Assembly: GCA_039105265.1 (NCBI GenBank)
Contig: JAPFFF010000012.1
Span: forward strand, 372,001 to 436,000
Origin: Tritrichomonas musculus
Lineage: Eukaryota > Parabasalia > Tritrichomonadida > Tritrichomonadidae
Direction of reading: 5' to 3'
Length of the DNA stretch: 64,000 nucleotides
Part shown: piece after piece, positions 52,449 to 59,860 of the stretch
Layout of the letters: every line of letters begins with the position of its first letter
Position numbering within the stretch: the stretch's first letter is position 1
Translations under genes and position numbers: made by a program
Notes under the pieces: generated by a model
Told to the model about the DNA's origin: nothing
The model's database searches: none
What the model saw: the letters and a program-made list of their open reading frames with translations, nothing else

Positions 52449-55400
52449 TCATTTTTTTTTTTTACGGCCAGGTACATAGGATTGAAGCATTTTTGTGTTA
52501 TTTTGGTTATTTTTAGGTGGTTGTAGTGAGAAATTTACTCTTTTTTGATTTGGCATTTGAGAAATTGCATATGAAGTATTTGTCCTTCTCAAGCGATGAT
52601 TAGCGTTGTTTTCACTTGGACTTCCGCTTTGTAATTTACTTGAATTGCCACCTATTCCAGAGTTATTTGGCTTTGGTGCGTTATTGTTACGAGGACGAAT
52701 TGATTTGAATAATGACATGTTATTGGCAATATCGTCCTGGGCAATAAAATCATAAGCTTCAATGTTCTCTGAACTATCGCTGTCCATTTGAAAAATGAGA
52801 GTTGTCCTTGATTTTTTATTTTCAATATTTTTCTGTGGTTCTTTTTGTTCAACTTTGTTTGTTTCTTCTTTTTGTTCAACTTCGTTTGCTTCTTCTTGTT
52901 CAACTTCATTTTCTTCTTCTTCTTGTTCAACTTCATTTTCTTCTTCTTCTTGTTCAACTTCATTTGCTTCTTCTTCTTCTTCTTCTTCAACATTTGGTTT
53001 TTCTTTCTGTTCTTCTTTTTCTTCTTGTTTTTGTTCCATTTCTTGTTTTGGTTCCATTTCTTGTTTTTGTTCCATTTCTTGTTTTTGTTCCATTTCTTGT
53101 TTTTGAAGTTTTTGTGTTTTCCATGTGTCTTGTTTAAGGATTTCTTCTTCGAAAATACTTCTCAGATTTTTAGTTTTCACACGGAAAATTTTATTTTTTT
53201 TATCTTCTTCTTTTTTGTACCATTCTTTAGTATCATATTGACTCAAGAACAGCACAGCCTCATCATAAAAGTAAGGAGAATAATATTCTTCAACATCACG
53301 ATGAGTCAAAACAGGTGAAATTCTTAACGCTTGGTCTAAGAAAAAGTAAGCACGATATTGAATTCTGGAAACATTTATGAAATTATCATTGTACTCACTT
53401 TCAGGCTTAGTCATAAGATCAAGTTGTAATTCATAAATTTTTTCATGAATAAGTTTAAAAACATTTTTCGCAATTGGAAGAATTTTCTCTCTTTCCGTTC
53501 CGTGAGCATCTTTATAAGGAACATAAAAATAAGAAGCACAAATAGCGTACAAAATTGCATTTGGCATGAATTCGTAACCAGGATAACATAATTTATATTT
53601 ATCGAAATAAACTTTATTTTCTTTTGAAGCTTTATTGTTACTAAATAAATCATCAACGCAAAGTACATTGCATAGATATTGAGGGAAATATTGGGAATAT
53701 GTATCGTTTGAATTTGCAGATAAACCAAACATTTTTTCATCATTTCCTGGATGAAGATATACACCACATTTGGTCGTATTTCGAAGTGGACCATAATTCG
53801 AGATAATGGCAGGATCAGTATGGCCCCAAGAAATTTTGACAGCTGCATTTAAAAGTTTTCTAAAGTAATGAGCTCGTCCAATAACAATTAATTCATAAAT
53901 TTGTTTACTTTGATCTGATTCTTCATTTTTATTGTTACTTTTTCGCTTCGCGTTGCTTTCATTCATCTTATTGGCTGCTTCTGAAACTACAGCATTAACA
54001 AGATCCATGATTTGTTGGCGCATTGATGCATCTTCAGCATAAAGAACTATTTCAGAAACTGCTTCCGGATGAAGGAGTTCAATCACTTTGGTAATATCTA
54101 TAATGCTCCTAAAAATGGGATCTCTTGATGAACCAACTTGGATAAAAAAATTGTAATAAAATGTTTTGATCATTTTGAAGCAACATCGGGTGGCATCTAA
54201 AAAATATCCATTACGATAAAAAGAAGGTGCAAAATATTGTACTAAATAAAAAAGAAATTTGCGTAAATCATCGCCTTTGATGAACTTGGTTGGTTTGTTA
54301 CTTTTCTTTTTCTTTTTTTCTTGTTTTTTCTCCTTTCTCGTTTTTTTGAGCGTTTTCGAATTCTCTTTGTGCGGTTCTTCTTGCTTTTTGGTATTTACTG
54401 GATTTTTATCATTGGGATCATTTGTATTTTTTTCTGGTAATTCTGCTGATTTTAATGTTTCTGTGGATTTATCTTTTTCTTGTTTTCCTTCTTTATGTTT
54501 TTCTTCTTTATGATTTTCTTTATCTGATTTTTCGTTTTTTTCAATTAAATTTGTTTTTGTAAGTTGCTTCATTGCAAGCTTAATTGATCTTTTTGTAAGT
54601 TGATGAAAGTCAATACAATCATTCCTACTGCTTTTGTTAATTTCAATTACTATTTCTTCTTTTCCAAGCTCATCAATTAGAGTTAAAGTTCTATTTGCAC
54701 AGTATCTACGATAAAAGTCATCGTCAGACAATTTATGTGCTGTTTTTGTATTTATTTCGTTTTTCGCTTTTTTTCTTTGCTTTCTTTGCTCTTTCTTAGT
54801 TGGTTTCTCGTTTTTATCTTTTTGAGTAGACTTGATTTCTTTAAAACCAATAAGAAGAAATGTTACCAATCTTTTTAGGATTTTTTCATTCAATTTGATA
54901 ATTGCTATGAAATTTTTCACTTCAGTTGGAATTTTTTCTTCAATCTCAATGTTTAATGGAAAAATTGTTCTGCAGCCAATTTCAGGGTTAAAAAATGCAA
55001 AGTTGACTGATCTTACAATAACTTCTGCTGAAAAGATGGTATTTACTAATGAATGAGATAAATCAGCGCCTTTTTTAAAAATTTTTAAAGGATTTAATAG
55101 CATTAATGAAAATTTATCGATATTTGTTATGCTCATCAGTAGATCCTCAATGTTATCAATGAAATTGGTGTTGAATGAAAATTGAGATAAGACTTGAACC
55201 AACTGAAATCCGCCAATAAGTTTTGAATTTGACTGTAAATAAAGAAAGGCGTAAAGGATCCTCAATAACGAAATTCTGACAGCAACAAATGAAAAAAAAA
55301 TATCTTTTTTTTTCGATTCTGAATCTTGATTTAATTGGGTGTTGGGAGGATTTTCCGCTAACTCTTGACTATCCATAACAATATTTACAACTGCATAAAC

Positions 55401-57113
55401 AGCTTCCATAAGATTAATTGTAAGGTCAGAATTCTGATTAACAGATGCGCTGTCAGCAATTTTGTATATCAAAGGGCATGTTCTTTCGCATATAAAGTTA
55501 TAAAATGTTTTAGTTATTTCATCAGAAGCTTTGTAAAAAGAAACAATGCAAGATGTCAATAATGATATATTCAATAAAAAGTCGTTATATTCCGAATTAT
55601 ACATCAAATCATTAATATTTGGTTTTTGAAATTCTCTCATAATTTCATATGAAGATAAGCTTAATGCTGATAAAACTTTTGGTAGATTAATATAAAGGCT
55701 TGCATCTTTTTGTCTTATTAACGGTAGAATGATTGTTAAAGCACAATTTAACATTGTTATATGAGCATTATTAAATTGAGTATTTGATTTCTTATTTTTT
55801 TTAAATATTCCTTTGTCATCATCGTTTTCGTCATCACAGTCACTATTTTGTTTTTCTTTTTGTTTCTTCATTTTAGCATCATCTTTTTTTTCACTATTCT
55901 TGTCTTTGTCTTTTACTTTCAAATAGATGTAAAACTTATCAATAAAGTCAGTCGATTTTTGAGGAAGTAAAAAATCTGGAGTGCAATGAATTGGGTCAGA
56001 TGGATCCTTTTGTCCATTCTTAGATTTGTCATTAGGTTTATTGGGATTTTGGTTCTTAGCTTTGTCTTTTGTATCTTTATCTTGTTTTGCTTTTTTCTCT
56101 TTTTCAGCCTTTTTGTTTTTATTCTTTTCATTATTTTTGCTATCTTTTTTATTTTTATCTTCTTTATCTTGTTGTTTCTCTTCATATCGAGTATAATTAT
56201 CTGTGATATTAAAATAAATATTTTTTTCTTTAAATAATTCGATTAATGGCCGGAATTTCTCTGGAATTTGAAACCTTTCGGCAAGATTTGACTGTTTTAC
56301 TTTCTTTGCCTCTTCTTTGACAGTCTTTTTTATATTAATTAATGATAAAATGATAATAATCCAGTCAATCACTTCACGAAAGTTGATAAGAATATTCGTT
56401 TCAAATTTATAAGATGAACTGTTTTTTCTGTAAGGTGAATAATCTGATCTAATATCAATTGAATTCCAATCAAATCTTTTGTCAGTATTTTGCTCATCAT
56501 TTTTGTCATCATAACTAAGATATTCGGTAACAATTGGTATAACTTTTTCAATAAAAGGTGTGATCATTCGAAGAAATGATTTCGAGTTTTCTTTAAAATT
56601 AAAAAATTCTGGGCCTGGTGCATACATATATTTTTTCAAATAAAAAATCTTGGCATAATTGACAAAAAATCGCATTGCTTCTTTACATAATGGAAAATAA
56701 TTTTCAAAATCAAAAAATATAATATCCTTTTCTAACCTTGTGTAAATTTGTGTAAAATAATGAGTCATTTGTTCGAGGTGATATTTTAAACAATCCTTCG
56801 AGGCCTGTGCTTTGATCATTTTTCGAAAAGCTATACGTGATTGGCGAGAAGTTGCTCTTGATTTCATTTTCGAACTCATTTTTCTCTTCGTTTTTGTAGA
56901 AAATGCAGAAATAGCATCATTTTTTGTAACATGATCTATATATACCGTTTCTTTTTTTTCTTTAAAAAATTTATAATTGGATTCAGCATAATCCACTAAT
57001 CCAGAAAGAAGTTGAACTGCATGTTGGTTGAAGGTCAACATTTGATCCATTAGGTAGCCAATGTAACTCTCATCTTCACTTTGAATCGTAGAATAAAGAT
57101 TAAATGGATCCAT
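52449..57113 (-). CDS. Large protein with acidic Glu/Gln repeat tail (1554 residues), unknown family
   Basis: The protein alternates helical, probably folded parts (about 1-270, 440-770 and 960-1340) with Lys/Asp/Asn/Glu-rich disordered stretches (about 310-440, 770-800 and 850-960). Near residues 1340-1420 short repeats of KQEMEQ and EVEQEEEEN form an acidic tail. A folded part around 1120-1260 contains YFRKLLNAAVKISWGHTDP and PGYEFMPNAILYAICASYFY. I do not recognise the family. The start codon lies only about 75 bases from the left end of the Mutator-like element, so that element now occupies its upstream region. Confidence 0.75.
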   Translation of the reverse strand: MDPFNLYSTIQSEDESYIGYLMDQMLTFNQHAVQLLSGLVDYAESNYKFFKEKKETVYIDHVTKNDAISAFSTKTKRKMSSKMKSRATSRQSRIAFRKMIKAQASKDCLKYHLEQMTHYFTQIYTRLEKDIIFFDFENYFPLCKEAMRFFVNYAKIFYLKKYMYAPGPEFFNFKENSKSFLRMITPFIEKVIPIVTEYLSYDDKNDEQNTDKRFDWNSIDIRSDYSPYRKNSSSYKFETNILINFREVIDWIIIILSLINIKKTVKEEAKKVKQSNLAERFQIPEKFRPLIELFKEKNIYFNITDNYTRYEEKQQDKEDKNKKDSKNNEKNKNKKAEKEKKAKQDKDTKDKAKNQNPNKPNDKSKNGQKDPSDPIHCTPDFLLPQKSTDFIDKFYIYLKVKDKDKNSEKKDDAKMKKQKEKQNSDCDDENDDDKGIFKKNKKSNTQFNNAHITMLNCALTIILPLIRQKDASLYINLPKVLSALSLSSYEIMREFQKPNINDLMYNSEYNDFLLNISLLTSCIVSFYKASDEITKTFYNFICERTCPLIYKIADSASVNQNSDLTINLMEAVYAVVNIVMDSQELAENPPNTQLNQDSESKKKDIFFSFVAVRISLLRILYAFLYLQSNSKLIGGFQLVQVLSQFSFNTNFIDNIEDLLMSITNIDKFSLMLLNPLKIFKKGADLSHSLVNTIFSAEVIVRSVNFAFFNPEIGCRTIFPLNIEIEEKIPTEVKNFIAIIKLNEKILKRLVTFLLIGFKEIKSTQKDKNEKPTKKEQRKQRKKAKNEINTKTAHKLSDDDFYRRYCANRTLTLIDELGKEEIVIEINKSSRNDCIDFHQLTKRSIKLAMKQLTKTNLIEKNEKSDKENHKEEKHKEGKQEKDKSTETLKSAELPEKNTNDPNDKNPVNTKKQEEPHKENSKTLKKTRKEKKQEKKKKKSNKPTKFIKGDDLRKFLFYLVQYFAPSFYRNGYFLDATRCCFKMIKTFYYNFFIQVGSSRDPIFRSIIDITKVIELLHPEAVSEIVLYAEDASMRQQIMDLVNAVVSEAANKMNESNAKRKSNNKNEESDQSKQIYELIVIGRAHYFRKLLNAAVKISWGHTDPAIISNYGPLRNTTKCGVYLHPGNDEKMFGLSANSNDTYSQYFPQYLCNVLCVDDLFSNNKASKENKVYFDKYKLCYPGYEFMPNAILYAICASYFYVPYKDAHGTEREKILPIAKNVFKLIHEKIYELQLDLMTKPESEYNDNFINVSRIQYRAYFFLDQALRISPVLTHRDVEEYYSPYFYDEAVLFLSQYDTKEWYKKEEDKKNKIFRVKTKNLRSIFEEEILKQDTWKTQKLQKQEMEQKQEMEQKQEMEPKQEMEQKQEEKEEQKEKPNVEEEEEEEANEVEQEEEENEVEQEEEENEVEQEEANEVEQKEETNKVEQKEPQKNIENKKSRTTLIFQMDSDSSENIEAYDFIAQDDIANNMSLFKSIRPRNNNAPKPNNSGIGGNSSKLQSGSPSENNANHRLRRTNTSYAISQMPNQKRVNFSLQPPKNNQNNTKMLQSYVPGRKKKK

Positions 57114-57190
57114 TCTAAAATTTTATAACACAATATTTGAATAATTATTGAAGTTTTTAACTTTTTGTAAACTTGAAAGAAAATGTTAGA

Positions 57191-57367
57191 CAATCGTTTT
57201 TCCTGTCGGACGACTTTTTGAGGGCATTTTTCTCTCAAAAAGTGGTGCTAAACATCAGAGGTTGTATCAAAAAGTGAAATTCTCTCAATTATTTTGATAG
57301 TAATTTGCAGTGAAAAAGTGAAATTCTCTCAATTTATTTTGATAGTAATTTGCAGTGAAAAAGTGGA
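57191..57367 (+). repeat. Left terminal inverted repeat of the Mutator-like element
   Basis: 177 bp, identical in inverted orientation to 58490-58666; it includes a tandem pair of ~46-bp units ending GTAATTTGCAGTG. Confidence 0.92.
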
Positions 57368-57444
57368 ATATTGATTCAAAAAGTTGTTTGCTTTTTGAAA
57401 ATATTATTTAAAAAATACATTTTTTATGTCGTTAATTAGTGATC

Positions 57445-58059
57445 ATGAACCAAACAAATCAAATCATCATTTCATGCTCAAAAATTCAAAATACTAAGTT
57501 TCCTGCTGAGATCAATGGAATTGAATATGAATCTTTAACAAATTATGTTCATCAAATCTCGCATCAAGCATTTCTCCCATTTTCAGCTCATGAAACATCA
57601 AAAGATAGAGCATCAGTTACTTATGGTTGCACTTTTTCTTCAATAGGATGCACAGCAAAATTAGTTTTTAAACAATCTCAATCATTTAATTCAGATTTTT
57701 ATTATTCGTTCGATCTTCAAAACAGTATTCTTACTCATAGTCAACATCTGCTAGATAGGCGTTTTATCGAAGATCATCGCAATTGCTTGACAAGTAAGCA
57801 AATCCAGGATATTAGATTTCAAACGGAGCTTGGCGTTTTGCCTGGAAGAATAAGAACAAATGTAAACGTTGATACTGGAAGTGATATTTACTATAGCATT
57901 CGACGCCCTATTTTACGTTATTTAAATAATGAAAGTTTAGATTCTCTAATAGAAAAACTCAGAAATGGAAATGAAAAATTAATTAAAATCTCAAAACCAA
58001 ATGATACATTAATCATTATTTTTTTATCTTTTTTTATCATTATTCTTATTTTGTTTTAA
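57445..58059 (+). CDS. Element-encoded zinc-finger (FLYWCH/FAR1-like) protein with C-terminal membrane tail
   Basis: I place the start at the ATG at 57445 (the frame opens at a GTG at 57439), giving 204 residues. Cys62, Cys69, His98 and His101 form a C-x6-C ... H-x2-H site inside a beta-rich segment (VTYGCTF, CTAKLVF and SILTHSQH), the pattern of the FLYWCH/FAR1/WRKY-GCM1 fingers that start Mutator-type transposases. The segment LTSKQIQDIRFQTELGVLPG (115-134) resembles the helical region that follows. The DDE transposase domain is absent. The last residues (about 188-204; LIIIFLSFFIIILILF) are purely hydrophobic and would act as a tail anchor. It is either a truncated transposase or an accessory protein of the element. 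Confidence 0.72.
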   Translation: MNQTNQIIISCSKIQNTKFPAEINGIEYESLTNYVHQISHQAFLPFSAHETSKDRASVTYGCTFSSIGCTAKLVFKQSQSFNSDFYYSFDLQNSILTHSQHLLDRRFIEDHRNCLTSKQIQDIRFQTELGVLPGRIRTNVNVDTGSDIYYSIRRPILRYLNNESLDSLIEKLRNGNEKLIKISKPNDTLIIIFLSFFIIILILF

Positions 58060-58489
58060 AAAAAATTCAATTAAAAATAATCGTTTTTTATAAATTCAAA
58101 AGTTTATATAATTCAAAAATAAGAAAAAAACTATTCAAAAAAATAGACAAAAGAATGAGTTATTTTAACTTTTAGTAACATTTTTAACATCTCGACAATA
58201 CGTATAAAATCATTTATATTATAATCATTGAAGCTGGATTTGTTATTTGATGAATATTATTTGTATTCATATTTATGATGCGCAAGATTAGTTAAGAATT
58301 GAATTAAAAAACATATTAAGATGTTTTGTTTGCTCTTCGTAACATTGAATAAAAAGGTTTATAATTGTTCTTTGTACAACGAAAAAATAAAAGCATGGCT
58401 ATTCATATGCCAAAATTATTTTTTCTGAAAAAGTCGATTTTCCATTATTGAAAAGTTTTTCAATATTGTGAAGAAAATATATAATTATA

Positions 58490-58666
58490 TCCACTTTTTC
58501 ACTGCAAATTACTATCAAAATAAATTGAGAGAATTTCACTTTTTCACTGCAAATTACTATCAAAATAATTGAGAGAATTTCACTTTTTGATACAACCTCT
58601 GATGTTTAGCACCACTTTTTGAGAGAAAAATGCCCTCAAAAAGTCGTCCGACAGGAAAAACGATTG
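58490..58666 (-). repeat. Right terminal inverted repeat of the Mutator-like element
   Basis: 177 bp, the exact reverse complement of 57191-57367 by direct comparison. Confidence 0.92.
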
Positions 58667-58828
58667 CCCGAAAATGTTAATTTTATTTCTAAGCTGATCT
58701 GCCAGCAACGGATCAAATCAACTTGACTTCAAAGCCAAAAAAAAAAAAAAATCTAATTCAATTACAAATGTAAAAAATGGTCTAAAGAGCCAAAAAAAAT
58801 AAAATAACAATAATATATTTATATACAT

Positions 58829-59860
58829 TTAATCTGTGCATTCAGATCTTGTTAATTTATGTGCAGAGAAGGGTCTTTTAAATTGTGGTGTAACAATTTT
58901 CTTTGGATTTAGCTGTCTTTGATGTATTATTGGACTTTGAAATTCTTTTTTTAAAGAAGGATCTATATAAGCTCTAGCAGAAGGTGGTCTATTATTAACT
59001 GCATCCGAAATTTGTTCAGTCATTATGCTATTGCCGTCATCAATTTCCTTTAACGTTGATAATGGTGATTTTAAACCTATACATGGAACTGAATGATCAT
59101 TAATCTGATTTTTTGAAGATAAGCTTTTTATATTGCATGGTGATTTGTTAACTACATCAAAATCTTTGATTACAACCTTTTTTTGTAGTGTGCTGCTTGA
59201 AAGATTCTCATGAATATTTTCTTTATCTTTATCTTTGTCTTTTTCCTTTCCATTTTTGGGTGTAATTAATAAATTTGTGGGTTTAGATTTTGGTGTCTTT
59301 GGTCTTAGTCGCTTTTCATCTAGATAAATTATCTGAGGCATTTTTTCCATTATATCTTTTCTATATGTTTTTGAGTTTGAGCATGGATTTCCAATTAGTG
59401 TTAAAGCTTTTAGTTTTTGGCATGCATTTAAAAATGAAACTGAATCAACATCAGGAATACGATTGTGTTCTATGTCAAGAACTTTTAAACGATTTAAAGA
59501 CATAAGTTCATAAATATCTGTGATTTTATTAAATGCTAAATAAAGTTCTTCAAGTCTAGGCGATATTGTTGCAATTCCATCTAGATTTGTTAGTTTACAG
59601 TGAGCTAAAGATAAAAATCTCAAATTGACTAAGGAAGATGAAATATCTCTCATACTTGGAATAATCGAATTATTGAGTCTGAGTTTTTGAAGATTTGGAA
59701 AAAAATCGCCGACAAAAGTAAGTGACATTTCAGTTGTATCTGCAAATGCTTCTAGTGTTTTTATTTGTTTAAAATTTTTTTCTCCGCTGTAATTAAATAT
59801 GCTTTCAGTATCATCGATATCAGGATCATATTCATTATCTAGAATGATATTCTGAAGCAT
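58829..59860 (-). CDS. LRRC56: LRRC56-like leucine-rich-repeat protein
   Basis: From the ATG at 59860 (the frame opens at a TTG at 59863) the product has 343 residues. Residues about 50-200 are SDS22-type leucine-rich repeats. Their order follows LRRC56 (Chlamydomonas ODA8): LQKLRLNNSIIPSMRDI, LRFLSLAHCKLTNLDGI, LEELYLAFNKITDI and LKVLDIEHNRIPDV. A cap with LTLIGNPC and MPQIIYLDEKRLRP follows. LRRC56 assists maturation or loading of outer dynein arms in flagella, which suits a flagellate. The C-terminal 140 residues are basic and disordered. The assignment rests on repeat-by-repeat resemblance recalled from the family, not on a search. Confidence 0.75.
   Translation of the reverse strand: MLQNIILDNEYDPDIDDTESIFNYSGEKNFKQIKTLEAFADTTEMSLTFVGDFFPNLQKLRLNNSIIPSMRDISSSLVNLRFLSLAHCKLTNLDGIATISPRLEELYLAFNKITDIYELMSLNRLKVLDIEHNRIPDVDSVSFLNACQKLKALTLIGNPCSNSKTYRKDIMEKMPQIIYLDEKRLRPKTPKSKPTNLLITPKNGKEKDKDKDKENIHENLSSSTLQKKVVIKDFDVVNKSPCNIKSLSSKNQINDHSVPCIGLKSPLSTLKEIDDGNSIMTEQISDAVNNRPPSARAYIDPSLKKEFQSPIIHQRQLNPKKIVTPQFKRPFSAHKLTRSECTD

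Follow-up and report, generated by a model that had tools for sequence, protein, structure and literature searches.

Within a 64,000-nucleotide stretch of the Tritrichomonas musculus genome (assembly GCA_039105265.1, contig JAPFFF010000012.1, positions 372,001 to 436,000 of the forward strand; hereafter, the window), a 1482-bp Mutator-like element (MULE) was found between two minus-strand genes. One, a leucine-rich-repeat gene (58829-59860; LRR_4, E 5.8e-22), has its 3′ end toward the element, and the other, an open reading frame (ORF) of 1554 amino acids (aa) (52449-57113), has its start toward it. We read the element as a non-autonomous MULE that arose from a 2.8-kb MULE through one internal deletion, with 5 bp of microhomology at the junction, and we put the probability of this reading at roughly 0.95. 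The IMPDH of the genome could be aligned, without being identical, to all 503 residues of PDB chain 1ak5, the Tritrichomonas foetus enzyme (907.9 bits), which points to a Tritrichomonas or a near relative, probably other than T. foetus.

The element ends in terminal inverted repeats (TIRs) of 180 bp, of which the inner 177 nucleotides (57191-57367 and 58490-58666) are 100% complementary, as confirmed by string comparison, a match far beyond chance. A preliminary description of the locus had reported perfect 177-bp TIRs, and we likewise found no mismatch in the 177 nucleotides. The outer three bases of the 180-bp TIRs are unlike, with AGA at one end and GGG at the other, and within each TIR, one unit is present twice, 45 bp apart. 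On both sides, the element is flanked by a target-site duplication (TSD), the length of which had been given as 9-10 bp. The flanking duplication is real and 9 bp long, whereas the tenth matching base is a chance match, since this A opens the AGA tip of the element itself; a TSD of 10 bp was rejected, the ten copies of the family (see below) agreeing only on a 9-bp TSD and an AGA tip. Similarly, the element does lie in the span first assigned to it (57179..58679), but comparison of the ten copies corrected its borders to 57188-58669. The coordinates of all features are collected in Table 1.

Table 1. Features of the MULE insertion and of its immediate surroundings (positions are those of the window)
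Feature	Position	Strand	Basis or remark
Non-autonomous Mutator-like element	57188..58669, 1482 bp	+, oriented by ORF	Tips and TSDs compared in 10 copies
TSD, left copy GAAAATGTT	57179..57187	+	9/9 against right copy; borders set by 10 family copies
TSD, right copy GAAAATGTT	58670..58678	+	Border comparison of 10 copies
5′ TIR, 180 bp, tip AGA	57188..57367	+	Inner 177 bp perfect
3′ TIR, 180 bp, tip CCC on + strand	58490..58669	-	Inner 177 bp perfect
Direct repeat, 45-bp spacing, inside 5′ TIR	57289..57369, copies at 57289 and 57334	+	Unit number differs among family members
204-aa ORF	57445..58059	+	Transposase residues 1 to ~188 and ~15-17 new hydrophobic residues
Deletion junction, 5-bp overlap of two full-length pieces	58008..58012	+	Alignment to L017
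Original sequence left between insertion and 1554-aa ATG	57114..57178, 65 bp	-	Position count

A 196-bp query taken at the left end of the element was run against all 746 contigs of the genome (193 Mb). It gave 22 matches (22 of 22 candidates scored), which amount to 10 elements with both ends present and two isolated ends, both of them diverged, on contigs C18 and C21; here, C-numbers denote the contigs bearing copies and L-numbers the loci, L017 being the locus of a full-length copy on C1. The preliminary description had taken the absence of any other copy of the TIR as grounds for refutation, and other copies proved to be present in these 10 two-ended elements. Including the tips, the copy in the window, C48, C10, and C3b all measure 1482 bp, C3a 1490 bp, C12b 1437 bp, C63 2288 bp, C15 1009 bp, C6 6433 bp, and C1 2788 bp. 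Every copy begins with the 5′ tip AGA; at the 3′ end, 9 of the 10 have the tip CCC and C6 has CTC. All 10 are flanked by a 9-bp TSD (nine perfect and one, that of C1, 8/9). Both this length and the 180-bp TIRs, perfect over their inner 177 bp, lie within the ranges that excerpts of PMC6446971 give for MULEs overall, namely TSDs of 8-11 bp and TIRs of 14-500 bp. Some copies contain other DNA: in C63 (L012), the 1482-bp form is interrupted within its 3′ TIR by another element of ~850 bp, the 214-bp inverted repeats of which are 98% alike, and C6 (L014) has a different deletion and holds ~4.3 kb and 0.35 kb of additional DNA, with frames in the ~4.3-kb insert that resemble a second DNA transposon.

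The full-length copy on C1 (L017 1136-3923, 2788 bp) has matching TIRs and an open 625-aa transposase ORF. When this ORF was compared with Pfam, it matched PF10551 (MULE; E 3.6e-15, 56.6 bits against a cut-off of 27.6), PF21056 (E 5.3e-7), and PF00872 (E 3.3e-6). Candidate catalytic residues, assigned by eye, are D212 or D213, D273, and E380; also recognized by eye were CLVH at 294-297, a CxxC...CxH segment at 465-483, and a CCHC knuckle at 600-613. The PF10551 and PF00872 matches of the full-length relative and the 9-bp TSDs support the Mutator-like identity first proposed for the element, and the suggested search for TIR relatives with a DDE transposase yielded one (C1, 625 aa, PF10551). The DDE transposase is, thus, a property of the full-length relative, its domain having been deleted from the window copy. 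In a large protein collection, 20 relatives of the transposase were found, their identity ranging from 24% for the weakest to 99% for the best, the latter over 81% of the query. A sequence search of the PDB with the transposase gave no match up to E 1. Across the genome, PF10551 matched at least 142 times (150 of 266 candidates scored).

We then aligned the window element to the full-length copy. With position 1 set at 57191, element positions 1-822 and 818-1476 align to L017 1139-1959 and 3307-3920, respectively, and the 5 bp shared by the two pieces at the junction are microhomology. Lost in the deletion were the DDE catalytic domain and the zinc-finger-like segments of the C-terminus; the two ends survive, as does the portion of the transposase gene that encodes the N-terminus. 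A Pack-MULE carrying fragments of host genes was also considered and was rejected, since two pieces of the full-length MULE account for the element from end to end. The same junction is common to 7 of the 10 copies, most of them near-identical; C15 and C6 represent two other types of deletion, in which the transposase frame is left after roughly 95-100 residues.

Precise insertion into an uninterrupted site was observed for the C10 copy, which lies inside a dispersed repeat (L009:501-3060; 40 matches including itself, among 61 candidates). The two relatives examined, out of 39 other places, were both uninterrupted and had a single AAAAATATT. One of them (L070) aligned to the C10 flanks over 1207 bp without gaps, with 107 of 110 bases identical around the site, and the other (L069) gave an alignment of 1192 columns, 20 of which, close to the site, are gap positions. 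Several points weigh against our reading of the window copy, however. It is only 98.96% identical to the full-length C1 copy (15 substitutions in 1436 shared positions), and because of this value and the 8/9 TSD that C1 has of its own, C1 need not be the direct source. For the window locus, no empty site was obtained, the left flank having no second match in the assembly and the right flank not having been searched, and among the five copies whose flanks were searched (window, C1, C48, C10, and C3b), usable empty sites came from C10 only. The left flank of C1 matched only itself; that of C48 matched a dispersed repeat (L010:560-954, 40 scored matches including itself) ending ~100 bp before the element; and the right flank of C3b matched itself and one 79% relative beginning within the coding region.

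As for the age of the insertion, the window, C48, and C3b copies show 0 substitutions over 1482 bp and lie on three separate contigs. Compared to the window copy, C10 has 2 substitutions, C12b has 3 and one 45-bp deletion, and C3a has 14 and four indels; a 7-bp insertion in C3a is a near-repeat of the adjoining sequence. Because all 1482 bp of the window copy recur unchanged in two copies elsewhere, on other contigs, the family has moved recently, and the recent insertion asserted in the preliminary description holds on the strength of this 0/1482. Segmental duplication as the origin of the copies was not supported, for the bases beside the ten copies differ and the window left flank matches once. 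Perfect identity of the TIRs could also come from homogenization of the two ends, e.g., by gene conversion, and would then be little guide to age by itself. This would be consistent with the finding that both TIRs equal the 177 bp of the window element in four copies (window, C48, C10, and C3b), yet the outer three bases differ between the ends in all 10, as well as with the single 45-bp unit seen in one TIR each of C1, C6, and C12b. We consider homogenization somewhat unlikely; moreover, recency rests on the whole 1482 bp being identical in three copies and not on the TIRs, so both can hold.

Among more distant relatives, a C42 element (L063:746-3319) is 53% identical over residues 5-190 and has a perfect 70-bp inner inverted repeat. 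Its 5′ tip was read by eye as AGATAATCG, its 3′ tip as GGGCAAATCG, and its TSD as CATGATTAG. The AGA/GGG tip mismatch is alike in the C42 relative and the window copy, despite the perfect inner repeats of both. Because the C42 relative shows a like asymmetry, the tip difference may go far back in the family rather than reflect decay, and it is possibly a conserved end asymmetry. A scan of 10 more loci with one pattern found AGATAATCG upstream of the ORF in L036, L039, and L040, of which L039 and L040 look alike and are possibly one duplicated place; matches in L018 and L064 were not read as tips, and L035, L037, L032, L019, and L038 had none.

Given its position, the insertion might have taken the place of the 1554-aa gene's promoter or blocked it; displacement or replacement had been suggested in the preliminary description. 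That description had placed the insertion about 75 bases upstream of the start codon, and, indeed, the element lies 74 bp and the TSD 65 bp upstream of the ATG. This proximity would suit such an effect, as would the position of the sister copy C3b, 62 bp ahead of where a GH20 hexosaminidase-like gene (PF00728, E 2.2e-36) probably starts. However, the 65 bp of original upstream sequence are still present, and the trichomonad initiator is reported to lie near the start codon. When 20 upstream regions of the window were scanned, an initiator-like motif was not enriched, being found in 4 of 20 within the last 40 bp versus 6 of 20 at -100 to -61, and the promoter was, therefore, not located. In addition, with ~1 kb of flank inspected on each side, only 2 of the 10 copies proved to lie so near to where a long frame begins. 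We regard replacement or blocking of the promoter as improbable.

Nor was an insertion preference for promoters supported by the same survey, in which 2 of the 10 copies were found upstream of a long frame, 62-65 bp away from its start. The C48 and C63 copies interrupt short frames (61 and 85 aa, respectively), and six copies have no frame of at least 60 aa within 450 bp. The 1554-aa frame itself matched no Pfam family at E 0.01, its protein had no homologue at E 0.001 among 7992 candidates scored, and an Rfam scan of the window returned nothing above gathering scores. Separately, a 3′ subterminal stretch of the element (58412-58468) is 80-84% similar to L011:702-750 and 1014-1068, upstream of the GH20 gene next to C3b, and weaker, shorter similarities to it occur elsewhere in AT-rich DNA; the similarity to the GH20 upstream DNA may be a shared motif or chance.

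We next considered the coding capacity left by the deletion. The tail of the 204-aa frame comes from former 3′ non-coding DNA, because the 3′ piece begins (L017 3307) past the stop codon of the 625-aa ORF (3269); the last 15 residues have a mean hydropathy of 3.55, and the frame is open throughout in 6 of the 10 copies. Its N-terminal domain is possibly a WRKY/GCM1-like (WRKY-GCM1/FLYWCH) zinc finger with a helix-turn-helix, the fold match being weak. Used as a query, the 204-aa sequence retrieved four proteins: P0021 (183 aa, 98% identical), P0022 (248 aa, 72%), and the shorter pieces P0023 and P0024. P0021 and P0022 stop shortly after the N-terminal domain, and the end of P0022 resembles C-terminal zinc-knuckle DNA in another frame. 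Since the four proteins may be partial and the query is itself an N-terminal piece, a favoring of such derivatives is not shown by these matches.

The short element was presumably mobilized in trans. By analogy with other MULEs, the transposase of the full-length relative, or that of a related family, would bind the long TIRs and move the short form, while the 204-aa remnant might be expressed and might bind the TIRs as well, both of these being conjectural. It is conceivable that such a protein acts in self-repression, as described for the Drosophila P-element derivative KP, binding the TIRs through the retained N-terminal domain, competing with the full-length transposase, and so damping the family; we regard this as unlikely. 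Still less probable is the more specific proposal of a Mutator counterpart of KP, in which the 204-aa protein, with its tail from former 3′ non-coding sequence, would bind the TIRs and restrain the sole full-length copy found. If so, a parabasalid transposon family would be in the process of being silenced by copies that it gave rise to itself.

The findings fit an ordinary member of the MULE superfamily, the main value of which lies in its exact anatomy and in the paired full-length copy. In the literature searched, mostly outside subscription journals, we found no dedicated report of Tritrichomonas MULEs by title or abstract and no report of truncated or dominant-negative MULE transposases, only of piggyBac in Paramecium; the T. 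foetus genome paper gives counts of DNA transposons, and neither MULE nor Mutator is mentioned by name in the main text consulted (PMC11415386). The closest published comparison is with Trichomonas vaginalis, for which excerpts of PMC2725143 describe four families (TvMULE1-4), sought in 12 trichomonad species and isolates, with TIRs of 20-38 bp and, in TvMULE2-4, TSDs of 10-14 bp. According to portions of PMC6446971, the TvMULEs have TSDs of 9-11 bp and TIRs of 20-38 bp, and MULE-Tv has a 9-bp TSD and TIRs of 100 and 31 bp. Like the TvMULEs, the present family has a single transposase ORF that is free of introns and about as long (629 aa in TvMULE1), and near-identical copies occur within the family; TvMULE1 also has the DDE signature and, toward its C-terminus, a CCHC-like zinc finger, as here (PMC2725143, in part). 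By the published values, TIRs of 180 bp with an inner repeat set the present family apart from TvMULE and MULE-Tv, and its TSD is 9 bp (PMC2725143 and PMC6446971, in part). Again by published values only, the Entamoeba-type MULE1_EI, with its 9-bp TSD and 187-bp TIR, comes near the values found here, but its host is an amoebozoan (PMC6446971, in part).

What the locus offers is a MULE pair of recent date, one member full-length and the other internally deleted, the ends of which are known exactly, and the genome that holds it abounds in MULE transposases. Such a pair allows a test of whether truncated transposases that keep a DNA-binding domain regulate MULE activity. Internally deleted P elements are regarded as putative repressors if they keep the DNA-binding domain (PMC12393704, in part). 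Like KP, the element described here is internally deleted, has been spreading, and keeps the putative N-terminal DNA-binding region of its transposase; unlike KP, it belongs to another superfamily, and the repression described for KP is conjectural for it (PMC12393704, in part).
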